DNA of 36,125 nucleotides from a virus. The notes below the pieces were generated by a model. It was not told the origin of the DNA. It ran no database searches and saw only the letters and a program-made list of their open reading frames with translations. The position numbers and the translations under genes are program-made. How positions within the stretch are numbered: position 1 is the stretch's first letter; each line of letters opens with the position of its first letter. The DNA lies in the IMG/VR virus record IMGVR_UViG_3300012357_000009, positions 1 to 36,125 of that record; one strand, given 5' to 3'. This document shows, piece by piece, positions 3,426 to 31,572 of this stretch.

Positions 3426-3863
3426 ATGGCAGAGACAGCAGAACTTGATACAACGCAGGAAACAGCATCAACGAACGGTCATGACGACACGTGGAAGATG
3501 TTCGACACTGATGCGGCTCTGTTCCAACACATCACCTCAAAAGAGCCTGCCGAGGAAGTGATCGAGGTCCCAGAGTGGGGCGTCAAGATCTTGTGCAAGG
3601 CATTGGATGCTGAGAGTCGTATCGAGGTGGAAACGCTCGCATTTAACAAGCTAACGAAGGCGATTAATTATAAGAAGGTGTTGCCAGAAGTAGTGATCTA
3701 CGGATGCTATAACCCGCAAACCGGCAATCGCGCTTTTTCCGATGGACATTTGAGCACATTGAAAGATCCACGACACGGTGGAGCCGTCGTGCGCCTGGCT
3801 TTTACGATTCTGCGCCTCTCTGGCATGCTGTCTGCCGACGTGGAGAACGCGAAAAAAAACTAG
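3426..3863 (+). CDS. Tail assembly chaperone, short form (gpG-like)
   Basis: This 145-residue protein begins at ATG 3426 and stops at TAG 3861-3863. Its position between tail tube and tape measure is where siphoviruses encode the G/GT chaperones, which bind the tape measure and recruit tube subunits but are absent from the virion. The N-terminus is acidic and disordered; the rest has ALFQHITSKEP, VPEWGVKILCKALDAESR and AVVRLAFTILRLSG. These fit the first domain of a tail chaperone in which a strand and several helices bind the tape measure. The stop lies directly after the slippery sequence at 3854-3860, and the -1 frame is open from there to 4156. Confidence 0.75.
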   Translation: MAETAELDTTQETASTNGHDDTWKMFDTDAALFQHITSKEPAEEVIEVPEWGVKILCKALDAESRIEVETLAFNKLTKAINYKKVLPEVVIYGCYNPQTGNRAFSDGHLSTLKDPRHGGAVVRLAFTILRLSGMLSADVENAKKN

Positions 3864-4180: not shown

Positions 4181-7100
4181 GTGATTGACATACCGGATGC
4201 AGGCGAAATTAAGGCGAAAATAACAATAGAATACGATCCATCAGGGGTTGAGGCGGCAAAGAAAGACCTTGCCAGCCTTGCCGATATCGGAGGTGGTGCC
4301 GGTGACAGCCTGAGCAGTGCGGGTGATGAGCTTGCAAACTTTGGAGACAAGGCTGCGAAGGGGGCGGAGGGCGCTCAGACATTTAACGCTGCTCTCTCTG
4401 AACTCCCAAAGATGGCTGAGAGTGGCACAGAATCCATTGCGAGCATGAATGATGCGCTCTCCGAGAGTCCGAAAGCCTTCGAGGATACAGGTACGGCGGC
4501 TGAAGAGACAGCATCCAAATTACAAAAAGTCGCACAGCCGATGCAAGTACTTACTGAGCACGCTCAAACAATGGCAGACCGGGTAAGTGCAGCCGCAGAT
4601 AATATGTCTGTCTTCCAGAATGCGCTTGATGACCCTTTTCCATTCCAGATGATCAACAGTCATTTGAGCGAAAGCGGACAATCCTGGAATGATTTCACCT
4701 CATCCATCGGCAATGAGAACACAGCCTTGCTTGAGGGTATGGGGCATACGGGGATGAGTGCCGAAGGGTTGCTCGGCCAAATGAGCGGAAGTTTCCAAAG
4801 TGCAGGGAAAAGTATCTCAGATTCTATTAATTGGGACACCGTAGGGCCTCCAACCGATTTCGCTGCCGAGTGGAGCAAAGTCGGTGACACATTGGTTCAA
4901 ACAGGACACGCCGCTGAAGGTGCTGGTAGCGCTATAGGGAAAGCAGGAAAAGCATCGAGTGCATGGTGGTCTGGAGAAGCGGAGTCAGTATTCGGTGGTG
5001 GTGGCGTTATGGGTATCCTCAATGATCTTATGATGCCCATGATGGCTGCACAGATGATCGGTATGGCAGTTGGCGCGGTAGGACAGGGAATTTATAATGC
5101 CGCAGTGATCGCTGAAGGCCCAGGCGCTCATGGGATAGGAACGTTTACCGGGGCCATCGATACCATGACCGCATCGGCTGGTAAAGCAGGGCAGTCATTC
5201 TCAGAAAATTTTGGACAAGGGGTGCTCCCCGCTCTGAATGCGGCAAACAGTGTCGCTGCACAAGGAAAGGCTGGGTTTGATTTCTGGGGGAACTTAGGGG
5301 AAGGACTCGGCATGCAATTAGGGATAGTTACCGATCTTGCACAGGTTGCAGGCGGGGCTATCCTGAGCGCGTTTACTGTTGATGGTGCTGGTCAGGGTAT
5401 GCTTGACGCTGGTTCTCACGGACTCGCCAATTATTGGGCGAATTGGACGGGGCAAGCACAGCCGTATCCAGGTCCCACACCGCCAGATCAGATGCAAATT
5501 GCGTATCAGCAACAAATGGCAAATATGCCACGAACGGTGGAAGGCCAAACCATGACGATGAAGACGCAAGCGGGCACACTGCTTGCGGATTCAGTTACCC
5601 CTGCCTATCTCCAAGCGCAGGATGAGTTATCCGCCTCGCAAGCGATTTATCAGCGCGTACAGGCATCCTACAATGCTTCACACCCTATTAACCAGCAACG
5701 CATGCTACAAGAGGCTCAATACCAGGAATATGCAGCACAACAGAACGCTCTCTATCAAAATTACACGGGACAAGGGCCAGGCGCAGGCGCTGCGGGACAA
5801 TCCTCTCCACTGGACTTTTTGACGGGCATGGGGCCAGCCTCAGTAGCAGGGTTGCAGGGGCAAGGTGGTCAAACGTATGGGGACATGATTGGGCAAGGGA
5901 TAAAGGACTTTTTCGGCGGCACTGGCTTTGGTGGAGAAGTCATGCAGTTTCTTACTGGTGCAGGACCTGCAAATACAGCAGGTGGGCAAACGTATGGTCA
6001 GGCTATTGGTGGTGGCATTGGTAGCTTTTTCGGCGGCATGGGTGCAGGCATCGGAGGTTTCTTTGGTGGGCTAGGGCAGGATTTCAATAATCTCATTGGT
6101 GCTGGCGGCGCTACTCCACCTACCACGTCTATGGGTTGTTTCCCATCTGGCACGCTCGTACTGATGGCTGATAACAGCGAACGAGCCATTGAGTCACTTG
6201 AGATCGGGGACCGGGTGAAATCTCATGACGGACCCACGCCTGTTCTTGCCCTGCTCAAACCACCGCCACGGATCGTCTATGAGTTGACCTTCGATGATGG
6301 CAATAGATTACTACTGACCGCTTCGCATCCGATAGCCACTGAGCGAGGATGGAAGTCACTTTCGCCCAGACTGAGTAGGAAGGAGAATCCTGCTCTCGAA
6401 GTCGCAACGCTTCAAGTAGGCGATAGTGTCCACACCTCTGATGGTACCGCGTGCAAACTCTTGGACATAAAGGCACGTAGCGTTGCACAAGTGTATAACA
6501 TCACTGTTGCGGAACCTCATACCTTTTACGCAAACAAGATCCTTGTGCACAACAAAATGGGCGCAATGGCAAGCGACGGCACAGGGAGCGAGAACGTCAG
6601 TCTTTCGCATACCTTCACCGCTACCGTCAATTGGGCTGCAACCGGACTAGAGAAACAGTTTACCGCCGCGGCACAGTGGGCGGAGCAAAATCTTGTTCAT
6701 ACCGCAGTAGCAGCGGCTCAATGGGCGGAACAAAATCTTACTCATATGGCGGTTGCCGCTGCTCAGTGGGCAGAGCAGAACCTTACCCACTCAGCTACGG
6801 CGGCCGCTGAGTGGGCAGAGCAGAACCTTATCCACCCGGCAATAGCAGCGGTACAGTGGGCAGAGCAAGGGCTTGAGCATGATGCGGTAGCGGTTGCTAA
6901 CTGGGCAGAGCAAGGATTAGAGCACTTGTTCACCGGAAAGGCCAGTTGGATTGGTCAAGACCTCAACCATATGTTTACAGCGGTGGCCCAGTGGACTGCA
7001 CAAAATCTGACCCCCTCATTCACGGTGAATCCAAGCGTCACCATGCTTGCGGAAGGCACGTCCAACTTCCCAGGTGGCCCCGCAATCGTCGGAGAGGCAG

Positions 7101-7411
7101 GAACAGAGGTTGTATCACATAACGGGCAATACTCGCTTTTCGATCAAGGGGCAGCGCTGGTCAATCTTCCCTCTGGAGCGAATGTGTATCCGATGCAAGA
7201 TCTGAGCTATTCTCCAACCGCGCCGGTACAGTTTGCCGAAGGAACAGGCGGCCCTGTCATCCCCGTCTCACTTGGTATGAGCGGCAGGGGTGCGAGTATG
7301 CCAGAGTCCGTCAATGTCATTGTCAATCTGGACAGTCAGACATTCCTCTCCGCAATGGGCGCACCATTCGCGCAAACTATACGGGTAGGTATGGGCATGA
7401 GAAGCTTTTAG
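4181..7411 (+). CDS. Tail tape measure protein with internal Hint domain
   Basis: The protein has 1076 residues counted from GTG 4181. The N-terminus (KAKITIEYDPSGVEAAKKDL) and following helical region are typical of tape measure proteins. A hydrophobic stretch, residues about 273-312 (MGILNDLMMPMMAAQMIGMA and onward), could enter the host membrane. Gly-rich repeats near residues 545-640 contain two copies of a GQTYG...FFGG unit. Residues 653-791 form a Hint (intein-like) domain, and residues 808-942 are nine 15-residue repeats. The C-terminus has PAIVGEAGTEVV and a GANVYP-like ending usual in tape measure proteins. The start is uncertain: the near-perfect ribosome site AAAGGAGGTGAT (4174-4185) overlaps GTG 4181 and would instead fit an ATA codon at 4190. 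Tail length would scale with this protein. Confidence 0.85.
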   Translation: MIDIPDAGEIKAKITIEYDPSGVEAAKKDLASLADIGGGAGDSLSSAGDELANFGDKAAKGAEGAQTFNAALSELPKMAESGTESIASMNDALSESPKAFEDTGTAAEETASKLQKVAQPMQVLTEHAQTMADRVSAAADNMSVFQNALDDPFPFQMINSHLSESGQSWNDFTSSIGNENTALLEGMGHTGMSAEGLLGQMSGSFQSAGKSISDSINWDTVGPPTDFAAEWSKVGDTLVQTGHAAEGAGSAIGKAGKASSAWWSGEAESVFGGGGVMGILNDLMMPMMAAQMIGMAVGAVGQGIYNAAVIAEGPGAHGIGTFTGAIDTMTASAGKAGQSFSENFGQGVLPALNAANSVAAQGKAGFDFWGNLGEGLGMQLGIVTDLAQVAGGAILSAFTVDGAGQGMLDAGSHGLANYWANWTGQAQPYPGPTPPDQMQIAYQQQMANMPRTVEGQTMTMKTQAGTLLADSVTPAYLQAQDELSASQAIYQRVQASYNASHPINQQRMLQEAQYQEYAAQQNALYQNYTGQGPGAGAAGQSSPLDFLTGMGPASVAGLQGQGGQTYGDMIGQGIKDFFGGTGFGGEVMQFLTGAGPANTAGGQTYGQAIGGGIGSFFGGMGAGIGGFFGGLGQDFNNLIGAGGATPPTTSMGCFPSGTLVLMADNSERAIESLEIGDRVKSHDGPTPVLALLKPPPRIVYELTFDDGNRLLLTASHPIATERGWKSLSPRLSRKENPALEVATLQVGDSVHTSDGTACKLLDIKARSVAQVYNITVAEPHTFYANKILVHNKMGAMASDGTGSENVSLSHTFTATVNWAATGLEKQFTAAAQWAEQNLVHTAVAAAQWAEQNLTHMAVAAAQWAEQNLTHSATAAAEWAEQNLIHPAIAAVQWAEQGLEHDAVAVANWAEQGLEHLFTGKASWIGQDLNHMFTAVAQWTAQNLTPSFTVNPSVTMLAEGTSNFPGGPAIVGEAGTEVVSHNGQYSLFDQGAALVNLPSGANVYPMQDLSYSPTAPVQFAEGTGGPVIPVSLGMSGRGASMPESVNVIVNLDSQTFLSAMGAPFAQTIRVGMGMRSF
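6137..6553 (+). other. Hint / bacterial intein-like domain inside the tape measure
   Basis: Residues 653-791 of the tape measure open with Cys653 in CFPSGTLVLMADNSERAIES followed by LEIGDRV, the N-terminal splicing motif (block A). The T-x-x-H motif of block B is TASHPIA, with Thr713 and His716. Block F is VYNITVAEPHTFYANK and block G ends ILVHN with His790 and Asn791. There is no homing endonuclease insertion (139 residues in all). The residue after Asn791 is Lys792, not Cys, Ser or Thr, so the standard second transesterification needed for splicing lacks its nucleophile. This is typical of bacterial intein-like domains that cleave rather than splice. Confidence 0.85.
6602..7006 (+). repeat. 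Nine tandem 45-bp (15-residue) repeats in tape measure
   Basis: The repeat register is L-x-H-x-x-x-A-x-x-x-W-x-x-Q-x, for example LTHMAVAAAQWAEQN, LVHTAVAAAQWAEQN and LEHDAVAVANWAEQG. Nine units run from 6602 to 7006 and a decayed tenth follows. The invariant Trp and the alternating hydrophobic residues suggest a repeated strand-turn or amphipathic helix. DNA copies are similar but not identical, so they are not a recent slippage product. Each unit could add a fixed length to the tail ruler. Confidence 0.85.
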
Positions 7412-16572: not shown

Positions 16573-17334
16573 TTGAACAGACGTTATGGCTGGACGCCTG
16601 ACAAACCGGATCAGCGAGATCATCGCTTCCCTATCCACTTATTCGACCTCGGAGGATTGCCGCCAGTGGTGGATCTGAGATCGCAGTGCCCACCTGTGTA
16701 TGACCAGGGTGCCCTGGGGAGCTGTACCGCTAATGCTATTGCAGGCGCTCTTGAGTTTGACCAGATGAAACAGCAAGAGCAACAAGTCTTCACGCCTTCC
16801 CGGCTGTTCATCTACTACGATGAGCGGACGCGGGAGGGCACGGTCAATGCTGATGCAGGCGCGGCCATTCGAGACGGTATCAAGGGCGTGAATGCGCAAG
16901 GTGCCTGCCATGAGTCGCTATGGCCGTACGACATCTCACAATTCACGGTACAACCGCCTGCCCAGTGCTACCAGGATGCACTGTTACACCGCTCGCTCTC
17001 CTACCAGCGAGTCAAGCAAGATGTGACACACATGAAAGCGGCGCTGGCTGCGGGCTATGTCATCGTCTTTGGGTTTACGGTCTATGAGAGCTTTGAGAGT
17101 CCACAAGTCGCCAGTACTGGTGTGGTGCCGCTACCTGGTCTTGACGAATCAGTGCTCGGAGGTCATGCCGTGGTTGCAGTTGGCTACCGCGATGATGAAC
17201 AGACGTTCATTATAAGGAATTCGTGGAGTGACCAATGGGGCGGGCCAATGCAGGGCTATTGTACGATGCCATACGCCTACCTGGGAAATCGTGGGTTAGC
17301 GAGCGACTTCTGGGTGATCCAGACGGTTCAGTAA
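16573..17334 (+). CDS. Papain-family (C1) cysteine protease
   Basis: The protein has 253 residues. The TTG start at 16573 is set by AAGGAG eight bases upstream. It has all three papain active-site motifs: YDQGALGSCTANAIAGAL with Gln45 and Cys51, GGHAVVAVGY with His198, and IIRNSW with Asn216. It lacks both a signal peptide and a propeptide. The opening RYGWTPDKPDQRDHRF is typical of bacterial papain-like proteins that start directly at the mature enzyme. It sits between the tailspike and lysis genes, so it may be a virion-associated protease used at entry or a protease that matures tail proteins. A processing role on host surface proteins is equally possible. All catalytic residues are present, so it is probably active. 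Confidence 0.85.
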   Translation: MNRRYGWTPDKPDQRDHRFPIHLFDLGGLPPVVDLRSQCPPVYDQGALGSCTANAIAGALEFDQMKQQEQQVFTPSRLFIYYDERTREGTVNADAGAAIRDGIKGVNAQGACHESLWPYDISQFTVQPPAQCYQDALLHRSLSYQRVKQDVTHMKAALAAGYVIVFGFTVYESFESPQVASTGVVPLPGLDESVLGGHAVVAVGYRDDEQTFIIRNSWSDQWGGPMQGYCTMPYAYLGNRGLASDFWVIQTVQ

Positions 17335-29874: not shown

Positions 29875-30171
29875 ATGCCAATAGAGATCAACGGGGTAAA
29901 ACTTTATGGCCCTGCTGAGACTGCGAAAATCCTGGGAACCGATGTCAATATGTTGCGTTATTATCGCAACGTCGGATACATCGAGGGGACGGTCATGGCG
30001 ACAGCGACTTACTACACAATGGAACAGATTGAAGCTGGACGAAAAGTCATCGCAGCACCGAAAAAACGAGGGCCAAAGAATCGGAACAAGCGGGATGAAG
30101 AGGACACCACCTCATCGGTGACGTATCCGTCTTCTTCCTACAGCGCGGCGGCACTGGGAGCGACGGCGTGA
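29875..30171 (+). CDS. MerR/excisionase-like HTH protein, C-terminus read into IS end
   Basis: The protein has 98 residues; GAAGGAGACC precedes ATG 29875. Residues 1-62 form a winged helix-turn-helix (LYGPAETAKILGTDVNMLRY followed by YRNVGYIEGTVMATATYYTM). A basic linker KKRGPKNRNKRDEEDTT follows. The final part (SSVTYPSSSYSAAALGATA) overlaps the end of the IS110-family element, and its composition (Ser/Ala-rich) differs from the core, so the natural C-terminus may have been replaced by the insertion. The gene may have been longer or different before insertion. A DNA-binding regulator or excisionase is the likely role. Confidence 0.6.
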   Translation: MPIEINGVKLYGPAETAKILGTDVNMLRYYRNVGYIEGTVMATATYYTMEQIEAGRKVIAAPKKRGPKNRNKRDEEDTTSSVTYPSSSYSAAALGATA

Positions 30172-31572
30172 GTGCGATGCGTGCGACCAATGGCACGCAA
30201 ATGCTTTTCAACGCTGTAGAGTTCCGGCGCTGGCAGATCGCTTCCGGGTGGCAGTCCGGTAAGCAGATCGGCGTCCTTTTTCAAGAGGCGATACAAGAGG
30301 CCAATAAACTGACCCGCGATCCGTCCGATCACGCGGGTTTTGCCGACGTATTCACCACGTTTGACATCGAAGGGGCACATACGGGCGACCAGAGGGTCGT
30401 AAATGGCCTTCCACGCTGCGTCATACGTGACCATGTTGATGACAGACATGTAGATAGCAGATCTGGCCTGCTTGTTTCCGGCCCTGTCCCGTTTGCTAGA
30501 GTCAAAGGTCGTGCCAGTCTGGCTATGCCTGATGCCCCAGCCGAGAGACAGTCGAAGCTTACCGATGGTGGCAAAATTGGCAATATTACCGATAGCCGCA
30601 AGCAATACGGCAGCGGTCACAGGTCCGACACCGGTAAAGGACAACAAGATCTGTCCTTCTCGACTGTTTGCCAGGATATCGGTAATCTCGCTTTCCAGAC
30701 GGCTGATATGTGTCTGATGCAAGCGCCATTCAGCGATCAACTGTTCTTGCTCAATGAGCAACGAGCGGCGGCGGCTGATATCCTTTGTGCCAATAGTGAC
30801 GCGGGACAGTTCCTGCAACTGTGCGAGGCCGCCACGCGATGGATAGCGCCACTGACGAGCTGCGCACAGATCATCGAGACTGGCACGGGCAACATCTTGA
30901 GGCGTGGGGAATTTCTCACGGATCGCCAGGGCTGCAAGCGTGTTCGGCTTTTTGAAGACTTGCGTGAATTCGGGGAACAGTTCATCGCAAATCGCAGTGA
31001 GCTTATTTTCTCGTCTGACGGTCTCCCTGGTCAATTCGCTGTGGTGTTTGACCAGGCCGCGCAACATAGTGGCGACTGGACTGGGCGGGAGAAGTCGGTG
31101 CACTCTCTCTTGTTCATCAGTCACCGGGGCGCGGCGCTCTATCTGGTTATAGAGTCGCAATCCAAGAGCCTGAGCATCACGTCTATCGCTTTTCTCTTGC
31201 CCATATCGCTTCATGGCCTGGATGCGATACAAGGTGACGCCGTGCTCTTGAAGGAATTGTTCCAATGCTGCTCCATAGTGTCCTGTTCGCTCCATGAGGA
31301 CGTGAGCATTCTTGAGACGACTCACATGGATCTTGATGGCATGCAGGAGCTTCTCGAAGCCTTCCCGGCTGTTGGAGAATGCGAAGGCAGGGCAGCGGCT
31401 AAAAACCTTGTGGTGGTCCAGTAGAGGGGTAGAGATGAGACCTGCATAGTGGCCGGTCTTGCCGATATCTACGCCGACGTAGATTGTATCAACCATATCG
31501 ACTCATCCTTTCAAACTGTAGAGGAGGAAGAGGGACAGACGGAGCGGAAGCGAGGCCAATCACCGATGAGGT
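30108..31572 (-). mobile_element. IS110-family insertion element (ends uncertain)
   Basis: The transposase at 30138-31496 is flanked by a perfect 13-bp inverted repeat: ACCTCATCGGTGA (30108-30120) and TCACCGATGAGGT (31560-31572). Those limits give 1465 bp, but they could be subterminal. If the element carries a leader RNA, as IS110 members do, its left end may lie further out, near 31735. No target duplication is visible, in line with IS110 behaviour. The right end overlaps the 3' part of the HTH gene. Confidence 0.6.
30138..31496 (-). CDS. IS110-family transposase (DEDD-RuvC plus Tnp20)
   Basis: The protein has 452 residues with AAGGATGAG before ATG 31496. The N-terminal DEDD (RuvC-like) domain shows Asp10 in IYVGVDIGKTGHYA, Glu69 in HVLMERTGHYGAAL and Asp104/Asp107 in KSDRRDAQALGLRL. 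A helical linker follows. The C-terminal Tnp20 domain is recognisable from LLSFTGVGPVTAAVLLAAIG, LRLSLGWGIRHSQTGTTFDS (Ser325 probably catalytic) and AGNKQARSAIYMSVINMV. It would cut and join DNA using an RNA guide encoded by its own element, as described for IS110 recombinases. The length is above the usual 330-400 residues. All catalytic residues seem intact, so it may be active. Confidence 0.9.
   Translation of the reverse strand: MVDTIYVGVDIGKTGHYAGLISTPLLDHHKVFSRCPAFAFSNSREGFEKLLHAIKIHVSRLKNAHVLMERTGHYGAALEQFLQEHGVTLYRIQAMKRYGQEKSDRRDAQALGLRLYNQIERRAPVTDEQERVHRLLPPSPVATMLRGLVKHHSELTRETVRRENKLTAICDELFPEFTQVFKKPNTLAALAIREKFPTPQDVARASLDDLCAARQWRYPSRGGLAQLQELSRVTIGTKDISRRRSLLIEQEQLIAEWRLHQTHISRLESEITDILANSREGQILLSFTGVGPVTAAVLLAAIGNIANFATIGKLRLSLGWGIRHSQTGTTFDSSKRDRAGNKQARSAIYMSVINMVTYDAAWKAIYDPLVARMCPFDVKRGEYVGKTRVIGRIAGQFIGLLYRLLKKDADLLTGLPPGSDLPAPELYSVEKHLRAIGRTHRTHAVAPSAAAL

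Follow-up and report, generated by a model that had tools for sequence, protein, structure and literature searches.

A Hint domain followed by a conserved lysine inside a phage tape measure protein: a predicted self-processing tail ruler

The tail ruler of the virus described here probably cuts, or unusually rejoins, itself. Its tape measure protein (TMP) is encoded on a 36,125-base virus contig (IMG/VR record IMGVR_UViG_3300012357_000009), which was analysed over its whole length and is referred to below as the window. Between the body of the TMP and its C-terminal repeats lay a complete Hint domain. According to our preferred reading, to which we assign a probability of roughly 0.55, this domain is a catalytically intact Hint of the type-A bacterial intein-like (BIL) kind that self-processes the TMP, mainly by cleaving the body from the repeats and with ligation as a minor outcome. 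Lysine was found at +1 or +2 behind the domain in all ten Hint-bearing lineages, which is a new observation.

Results

Identity of the tape measure gene

The TMP gene (4181..7411, + strand) had a GTG start and encoded 1076 amino acids. The window TMP itself gave a weak PHROG match to a family of unknown function and did not reach the TMP families. The orthologue in L021 matched phrog_167, 'tail length tape measure protein' (E 1.9e-12), that in L025 had a PHROG tape measure match (E 7e-9) and that in L016 matched phrog_1272 (E 8.6e-8); the tape measure matches of the L017 and L018 orthologues were weaker. The gene was located downstream of a gene for a tail assembly chaperone, its upstream neighbour (3426..3863, + strand; phrog_344, E 6.4e-7), and of one for a major tail protein. 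Since the orthologues matched TMP families and the gene order fitted, the Hint-bearing protein is assigned from sequence as a tape measure.

The phage record also contained an IS110 family transposase (30138-31496, - strand; Pfam PF01548 and PF02371). A papain-family cysteine protease (16573-17334; PF00112, E 2e-14) adjoined a pectate-lyase-like tail spike gene and is a possible alternative protease for tail processing. In two relatives, ORFs resembling HNH/AP2-type homing endonucleases by sequence were situated beside the tape measure region (L230:7142-8005 and L007:89-1285).

The Hint domain

Residues 653-791 of the TMP (6137..6553, + strand) are a complete Hint domain without an endonuclease and no chance match. 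The window TMP exceeded the cut-offs of Pfam PF01079 Hint (E 1e-8; 35.5 bits, cut-off 29.7), PF14623 Vint (29.7, cut-off 27) and NCBIfam TIGR01443 intein_Cterm; the scores for TIGR01445 intein_Nterm and PF07591 PT-HINT (17 bits) were under theirs. The Hints of L025 and L037 scored under the Pfam Hint cut-off. With eight phage sequences as input, AlphaFold2 modelled the domain with a pLDDT of 92.7 and a pTM of 0.86. The top solved fold for this model was Tetrahymena BIL2 (PDB 6Y75, 6TMM; Z 22.2, 26% identity over 141 residues), and further matches were the gp41-1 intein (Z 21.2), DnaB inteins (Z approximately 20), the Clostridium BIL 2LWY (Z 18.1, 32% identity over 126 residues; E 1.6e-11) and Hedgehog (Z 17.2). 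BIL2 and gp41-1 thus scored as high as or higher than the type-A BIL 2LWY. Profile match and fold, with Z up to 22, place the domain in the Hint superfamily, and its length of 139 residues leaves no room for an endonuclease.

The domain began with Cys653 (Cys1, the predicted nucleophile of the N-S acyl shift; 6137..6139, + strand) and contained the block B motif TxxH as Thr713-Ala-Ser-His716 (6317..6328, + strand) and the block F histidine as His780 in HTFYAN (6518..6520, + strand). It ended with the block G pair His790-Asn791 (6548..6553, + strand), where Asn cyclisation is predicted, and was followed by Lys792 at +1 (6554..6556, + strand). The His-Asn end, a +1 residue other than Cys, Ser or Thr, and the Cys1 and TxxH motifs are those of a type-A BIL. 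The initial annotation had named Cys653, Thr713/His716, His790-Asn791 and Lys792 and had predicted a complete Hint fold without endonuclease; the residues were exactly at the positions claimed, and the profiles, the confident model and the structural matches (Z 18-22) bear the fold out.

Two other identities were rejected. A class 1 intein would have Cys, Ser or Thr at +1 and sit at a conserved site, and this Hint had Lys792 and sat at a variable joint. The Hog domain of Hedgehog is C-terminal, carries a sterol-recognition region and has no His-Asn end; the TMP Hint was internal and ended with His-Asn, although the folds are alike.

Relatives and conservation

Orthologous TMPs were fetched from IMG/VR via the neighbouring 1982-aa tail protein and then with TMP alignments. 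Apart from the window, these searches yielded 15 contigs encoding the TMP. The Hint was present in nine (L016, L017, L021, L024, L025, L026, L027, L037/L236 and L230) and absent in four (L018, L019, L020 and L022), which were nearly identical and were counted as one lineage; the L022 contig breaks off just past the Hint site. The remaining contigs, L028 and L032, end ahead of the Hint site. L037 had first been met in the Hint search and was met again in the TMP search. Among the 11 informative lineages (the window and ten from IMG/VR), ten had the Hint, always in the same place. No relative, and hence no host, was found in genome contigs searched with the TMP alignment. When the complete TMP or its Hint served as a single-sequence query against viral contigs, the searches returned nothing, or terminase inteins only. 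In the phage collection, the TMP N-part had no match, and the Hint matched 18 records, none of which was annotated as tape measure.

Cys1, T61, H64, H128, H138 and N139 (domain numbering) were invariant among the nine aligned Hint copies and likewise in L230. The Cys1 and His-Asn pair, the absence of which from relatives would have counted against the initial annotation, was thus kept in every Hint-bearing lineage. The body of the TMP (residues 1-652; 4181..6136, + strand) had a Gly-rich end, and Gly was at -1 in 10/10 Hint-bearing lineages. The +1 residue was K in the window, L017 and L230, I in L021 and A in the other six, so that Cys, Ser or Thr occurred there in 0/10, as the initial annotation had noted for the window. 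Over 28 pairs from eight lineages, the mean pairwise identity was 58% for the Hint, 42% for the body and 44% for the C-part, and the Hint was more similar than the body in 27 of these pairs; the Hint is therefore maintained. The TMP Hints were 46-74% identical to one another. Nine of them formed one clade among 126 Hint domains (SH-aLRT 98), in a tree with few columns for its rows. As far as the aligned copies tell, this pattern does not match an intein that is decaying or has recently been mobile.

A recombination joint behind the Hint

The part of the TMP behind the Hint (residues 792-1076; 6554..7408, + strand) is the predicted C-terminal fragment of 285 aa. It contained approximately 15-residue repeats of the AAAQWAEQNLVH type (6596..7015, + strand) and a conserved C-terminal segment (LAEGTSNFPGGPAIVGEAG...LPSGANVYP; 7043..7195, + strand), which followed all repeat types. 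The AlphaFold model of the C-part (pLDDT 32) was not used. W-containing AAAQWAEQNLVH-like repeats were present in the window, L016, L018, L037 and L230, IQLPHLDLSG-like repeats in L017, L021, L025, L026 and L027, and WPSLPEIK repeats in L024. Within a conserved phage gene, at least three mutually unrelated repeat types thus lay behind the Hint and before a conserved end.

The Hint tree placed the window with L017 (99/97), while the C-part tree placed it with L016, L018 and L037 (100/100). A clade of the window, L016 and L037 was rejected by the Hint data (AU p 0.0017), as was the grouping of the window with L017 by the C-part data (p 2.4e-42). A clade of the window, L016, L018 and L037 was not rejected by the N-part data (p 0.115); the case for the swap is therefore made by the Hint and the C-part. 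The identity of the window with L017 fell from 21/31 at the Hint end to 8/45 directly behind it (residues 806-850), where the identity with L016 was 34/45. Given the conflict between the part trees and this drop, the border between Hint and C-part, at the C-terminal edge of the Hint, is a recombination joint.

A lineage without the Hint

The lineage of L018, L019, L020 and L022 had an uninterrupted TMP of 1082 aa without a Hint. In L018, the motifs LFGGNxQT and GTxxVxLxHTFTA, found on either side of the Hint in L016, were linked by approximately 20-25 other residues, and Lys was absent at the position matching +1/+2. Its C-part nested among those of Hint-bearing lineages, which makes loss of the Hint likelier than its never having been gained (the trees were unrooted). 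A continuous TMP seems to work in this lineage, so that processing would not be obligatory in the TMP family. The initial annotation had proposed that self-cutting fixes the length of the ruler, releases the C-terminal repeats or generates a pore-forming fragment. From the comparison with this lineage, it cannot be obligatory in the family for setting tail length or producing a pore fragment; the continuous TMP of L018 argues more strongly than any other evidence against cutting as a required step in length setting.

Lysine behind the Hint

Lys was at +1 or +2 in 9/9 aligned C-parts and in L230, hence in 10/10 lineages. In the nine aligned lineages, it occurred at 0/162 residues from +3 to +20 and at 29/2862 residues (approximately 1%) from +3 on. 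The chance figure of 5.5e-16 for Lys at +1/+2 assumes independent lineages; the lineages are related, and we do not rely on it. The initial annotation had treated Lys792 as a mere non-nucleophile, which is correct insofar as Cys, Ser and Thr are lacking and leaves out that Lys at +1/+2 is invariant.

A wider set of Hints was assembled from 80 of 137 viral and 80 of 188 genome loci. It comprised 174 matched ORFs, of which 118 had a recognisable HN end; 123 ends including that of the window were used, and 95 were left once near-copies had been removed. ORFs lacking an HN end (on cut contigs, split by an endonuclease or ending otherwise) were excluded, and the search profile (A5) included six residues behind the domain. 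Lys was at +1/+2 in 39/51 Hints with a non-nucleophilic +1 versus 1/44 with Cys, Ser or Thr (Fisher p 8e-15). For +2 alone, with the +1-Lys rows omitted, the counts were 11/23 versus 1/44 (p 1e-5), and with the tape measures removed, 32/44 non-nucleophilic Hints had Lys at +1/+2. The -1 residue was Gly or Ser in 29/43 non-nucleophilic Hints.

A second sample, obtained with a domain-only search, gave a weaker signal (Lys at +1/+2 in 5/16 non-nucleophilic Hints versus 0/13), and two of the five Lys cases (L194, L205) were genes already in the first sample. For L202, a mid-domain match was omitted and the second end counted; the ends of L226 and L227 were not counted. On the Hint tree, the Lys label of the non-TMP rows was clustered (15 changes, shuffled mean 27); the association is therefore partly due to common descent. 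In the Hints compared, the lysine rule holds for the subfamily around the TMP Hint and not for all Hints.

Some non-nucleophilic Hints of the second sample had Cys at +2/+3, e.g. L207, L208, L217 and L224; this Cys is a possible second replacement for the +1 nucleophile. In five phage proteins (L043, L049, L060, L104, L105), the Hint was at the extreme C-terminus, and the protein stopped with HN-K or HN-IK or shortly after it, so any payload must precede the Hint. L104 matched a virion structural family and L105 a tail family.

Discussion

Predicted self-processing

The preferred reading draws on profile scores above cut-off, a confident model and structural matches to inteins, BILs and Hedgehog (Z 17-22). 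In the predicted reaction, Cys653, aided by Thr713/His716, would take over the carbonyl of Gly652 in an N-S acyl shift, giving a thioester. Asn791, aided by His790 and His780, would then cyclise, breaking the bond to Lys792 and freeing the 285-aa C-part. As the +1 residue is not Cys, Ser or Thr, the thioester would mostly be hydrolysed, leaving a 652-aa body, the 139-aa Hint and the 285-aa C-part; amine attack would give a ligated 937-aa chain as a minor product. Type-A BILs, which end with His-Asn and lack the +1 nucleophile, are reported to mostly cleave (PMC4031507, PMC7664689). Ligation, in which the C-fragment attacks the thioester with its free amine, is described as the lesser outcome (PMC4031507), while the wording of PMC7765530 on type-A BILs denies ligation. 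The initial annotation had expected standard splicing to fail in favour of cleavage at one or both ends. This holds for canonical class 1 splicing, with cleavage the main product expected from the type-A BIL analogy, but the missing +1 nucleophile does not abolish splicing, since type-A BILs reportedly ligate by amine attack.

To our knowledge, the purpose of the cut in the T5 and lambda TMPs is still poorly understood. A phage family with a predicted, conserved, built-in autocatalytic cutter of its ruler, together with a natural Hint-less control, would make that purpose testable. The TMP Hint would probably serve to part the body from the C-part as the tail matures, comparable to the proteolysis of these two tape measures. 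In T5, the TMP is cut after R1127, at a point between a hydrophobic stretch and the C-terminal domain, and the lambda TMP is also cleaved during morphogenesis (PMC10038345), which makes release of the C-terminal part, as the initial annotation had suggested, plausible by analogy. Against self-processing stand the Hint-less lineage, in which joined body and C-part seem to work, the Lys conserved behind the domain, and the Hints of L025 and L037 that fall short of the Pfam cut-off.

Alternative readings

Possible, although we consider it unlikely, is that the Hint removes itself and ligates the body to the C-part, giving a 937-aa TMP, with the free alpha-amine of the C-part attacking the thioester; the Hint would then be nearly neutral for the phage. 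This route is known for type-A BILs, body and C-part form one working chain in the Hint-less lineage, and Gly is always at -1; however, cleavage dominates in the reported BILs, and a neutral passenger without endonuclease should vanish or decay, whereas the Hint is kept in 10/11 lineages with all catalytic residues. The conserved Lys suggests that +1/+2 has a job, and plain hydrolysis would need none. The side chain of this Lys might replace Cys, Ser or Thr and attack the Gly652 thioester, which would join body and C-part by an isopeptide bond. The absence of Lys from +3 to +20 and the wider set argue for such an acceptor, as does the top structural match: in BIL2, ubl4 becomes linked through an isopeptide bond to the side chain of a lysine in the following domain (PMC8616854), and the N-flank reportedly ends with RGG. 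Nevertheless, we regard this reading as rather doubtful. The domain-only sample had few Lys cases, the proteins of L043 and L049 stop right at HN-K with nothing left for joining, the acceptor of BIL2 lies in the downstream domain, and the Lys could aid cleavage instead. Equally speculative is the extension to a lysine class of Hints, widespread in phage virion and bacterial proteins, in which Lys at +1/+2 is the acceptor in place of Cys, Ser or Thr. If true, body and interchangeable repeats would form a branched, isopeptide-linked ruler without ATP or a separate ligase, and the TMP Hint would be a viral counterpart of the lysine-directed Tetrahymena BIL2. A chemical lysine rule would explain how Hints function after loss of the +1 nucleophile, which the reviews, in the parts available, treat as a mere lack, and might offer an ATP-free protein ligation tool.

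An inactive Hint serving as a structural spacer between body and repeats is improbable: the activity of the Hint is predicted, and the Hint-less lineage has a short linker at this place, but a spacer would have no need of Cys1 and the final His-Asn, which are invariant despite the divergence of the TMP Hints. Very improbable is a decaying mini-intein that has lost its endonuclease and +1 nucleophile. The match to the intein C-terminal motif is in line with such an origin; the non-nucleophilic +1 with Lys was, however, kept over long divergence within one clade, and the ancestral state with Cys, Ser or Thr at +1 occurred in none of the lineages found. This reading is disfavoured.

Comparison with known systems

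Like the type-A BIL of Clostridium thermocellum (2LWY), the TMP Hint has a Hint fold, Cys1 and a His-Asn end and has neither a +1 nucleophile nor an endonuclease. Type-A BILs are reported from hypervariable regions of non-conserved proteins (PMC7765530); the C-part behind the TMP Hint is swapped between repeat types, but the gene that contains it is a conserved one. Unlike it, the TMP Hint resides in a phage tape measure and not in the variable bacterial proteins reported as hosts, and Lys is fixed at +1/+2, for which the consulted portions of the BIL reviews give no rule. BIL2 from the Tetrahymena BUBL1 polyubiquitin locus shares Gly before Cys1 and is the best structural match. It differs in its eukaryotic ubiquitin-like hosts and in an acceptor lysine located in the next domain, and its activity has been shown, while that of the TMP Hint is predicted. 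The PT-HINT of polymorphic toxins is also found directly before an interchangeable C-terminal part (PMC3482391); the swapped part of the TMP consists of repeats plus an end conserved among the TMPs, and no match to a toxin family was found in the window TMP with Pfam or PHROG. Streptomyces-type Hints differ from the TMP Hints in starting with SF and in mostly having Cys, Ser or Thr at +1. T5 pb2 and lambda gpH are likewise cut during morphogenesis, T5 before the C-terminal domain (PMC10038345), but there another protein is assumed to be the protease, whereas here the predicted cutter is built in. The tape measure gene of ICP1 is also interrupted, by an intron with a homing endonuclease that is removed from the RNA and not from the protein. 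phiCbK, Mooltan, Shashou, ICP1 and cluster J were rejected as precedents, having, according to the text seen, an intein in another gene or a TMP intron. In the literature searched, with most subscription journals outside its scope, no paper was recognised that reports a Hint or intein within a TMP, and nothing recognised as a lysine rule was found on intein-like domains with isopeptide or lysine.

Hints also occurred as arrays. A Bacteroidetes MAG contig (L190) had four consecutive Hint ORFs, with an HN end recognised in none. On a 434-kb viral contig (L075:4276-6873), an 866-aa protein contained three tandem Hints with Lys after each (KGS, KGG and KKD). In an unrelated setting, a Phycisphaerales protein (L149:4130-6835) contained three tandem Hints, each ending with HN-K.
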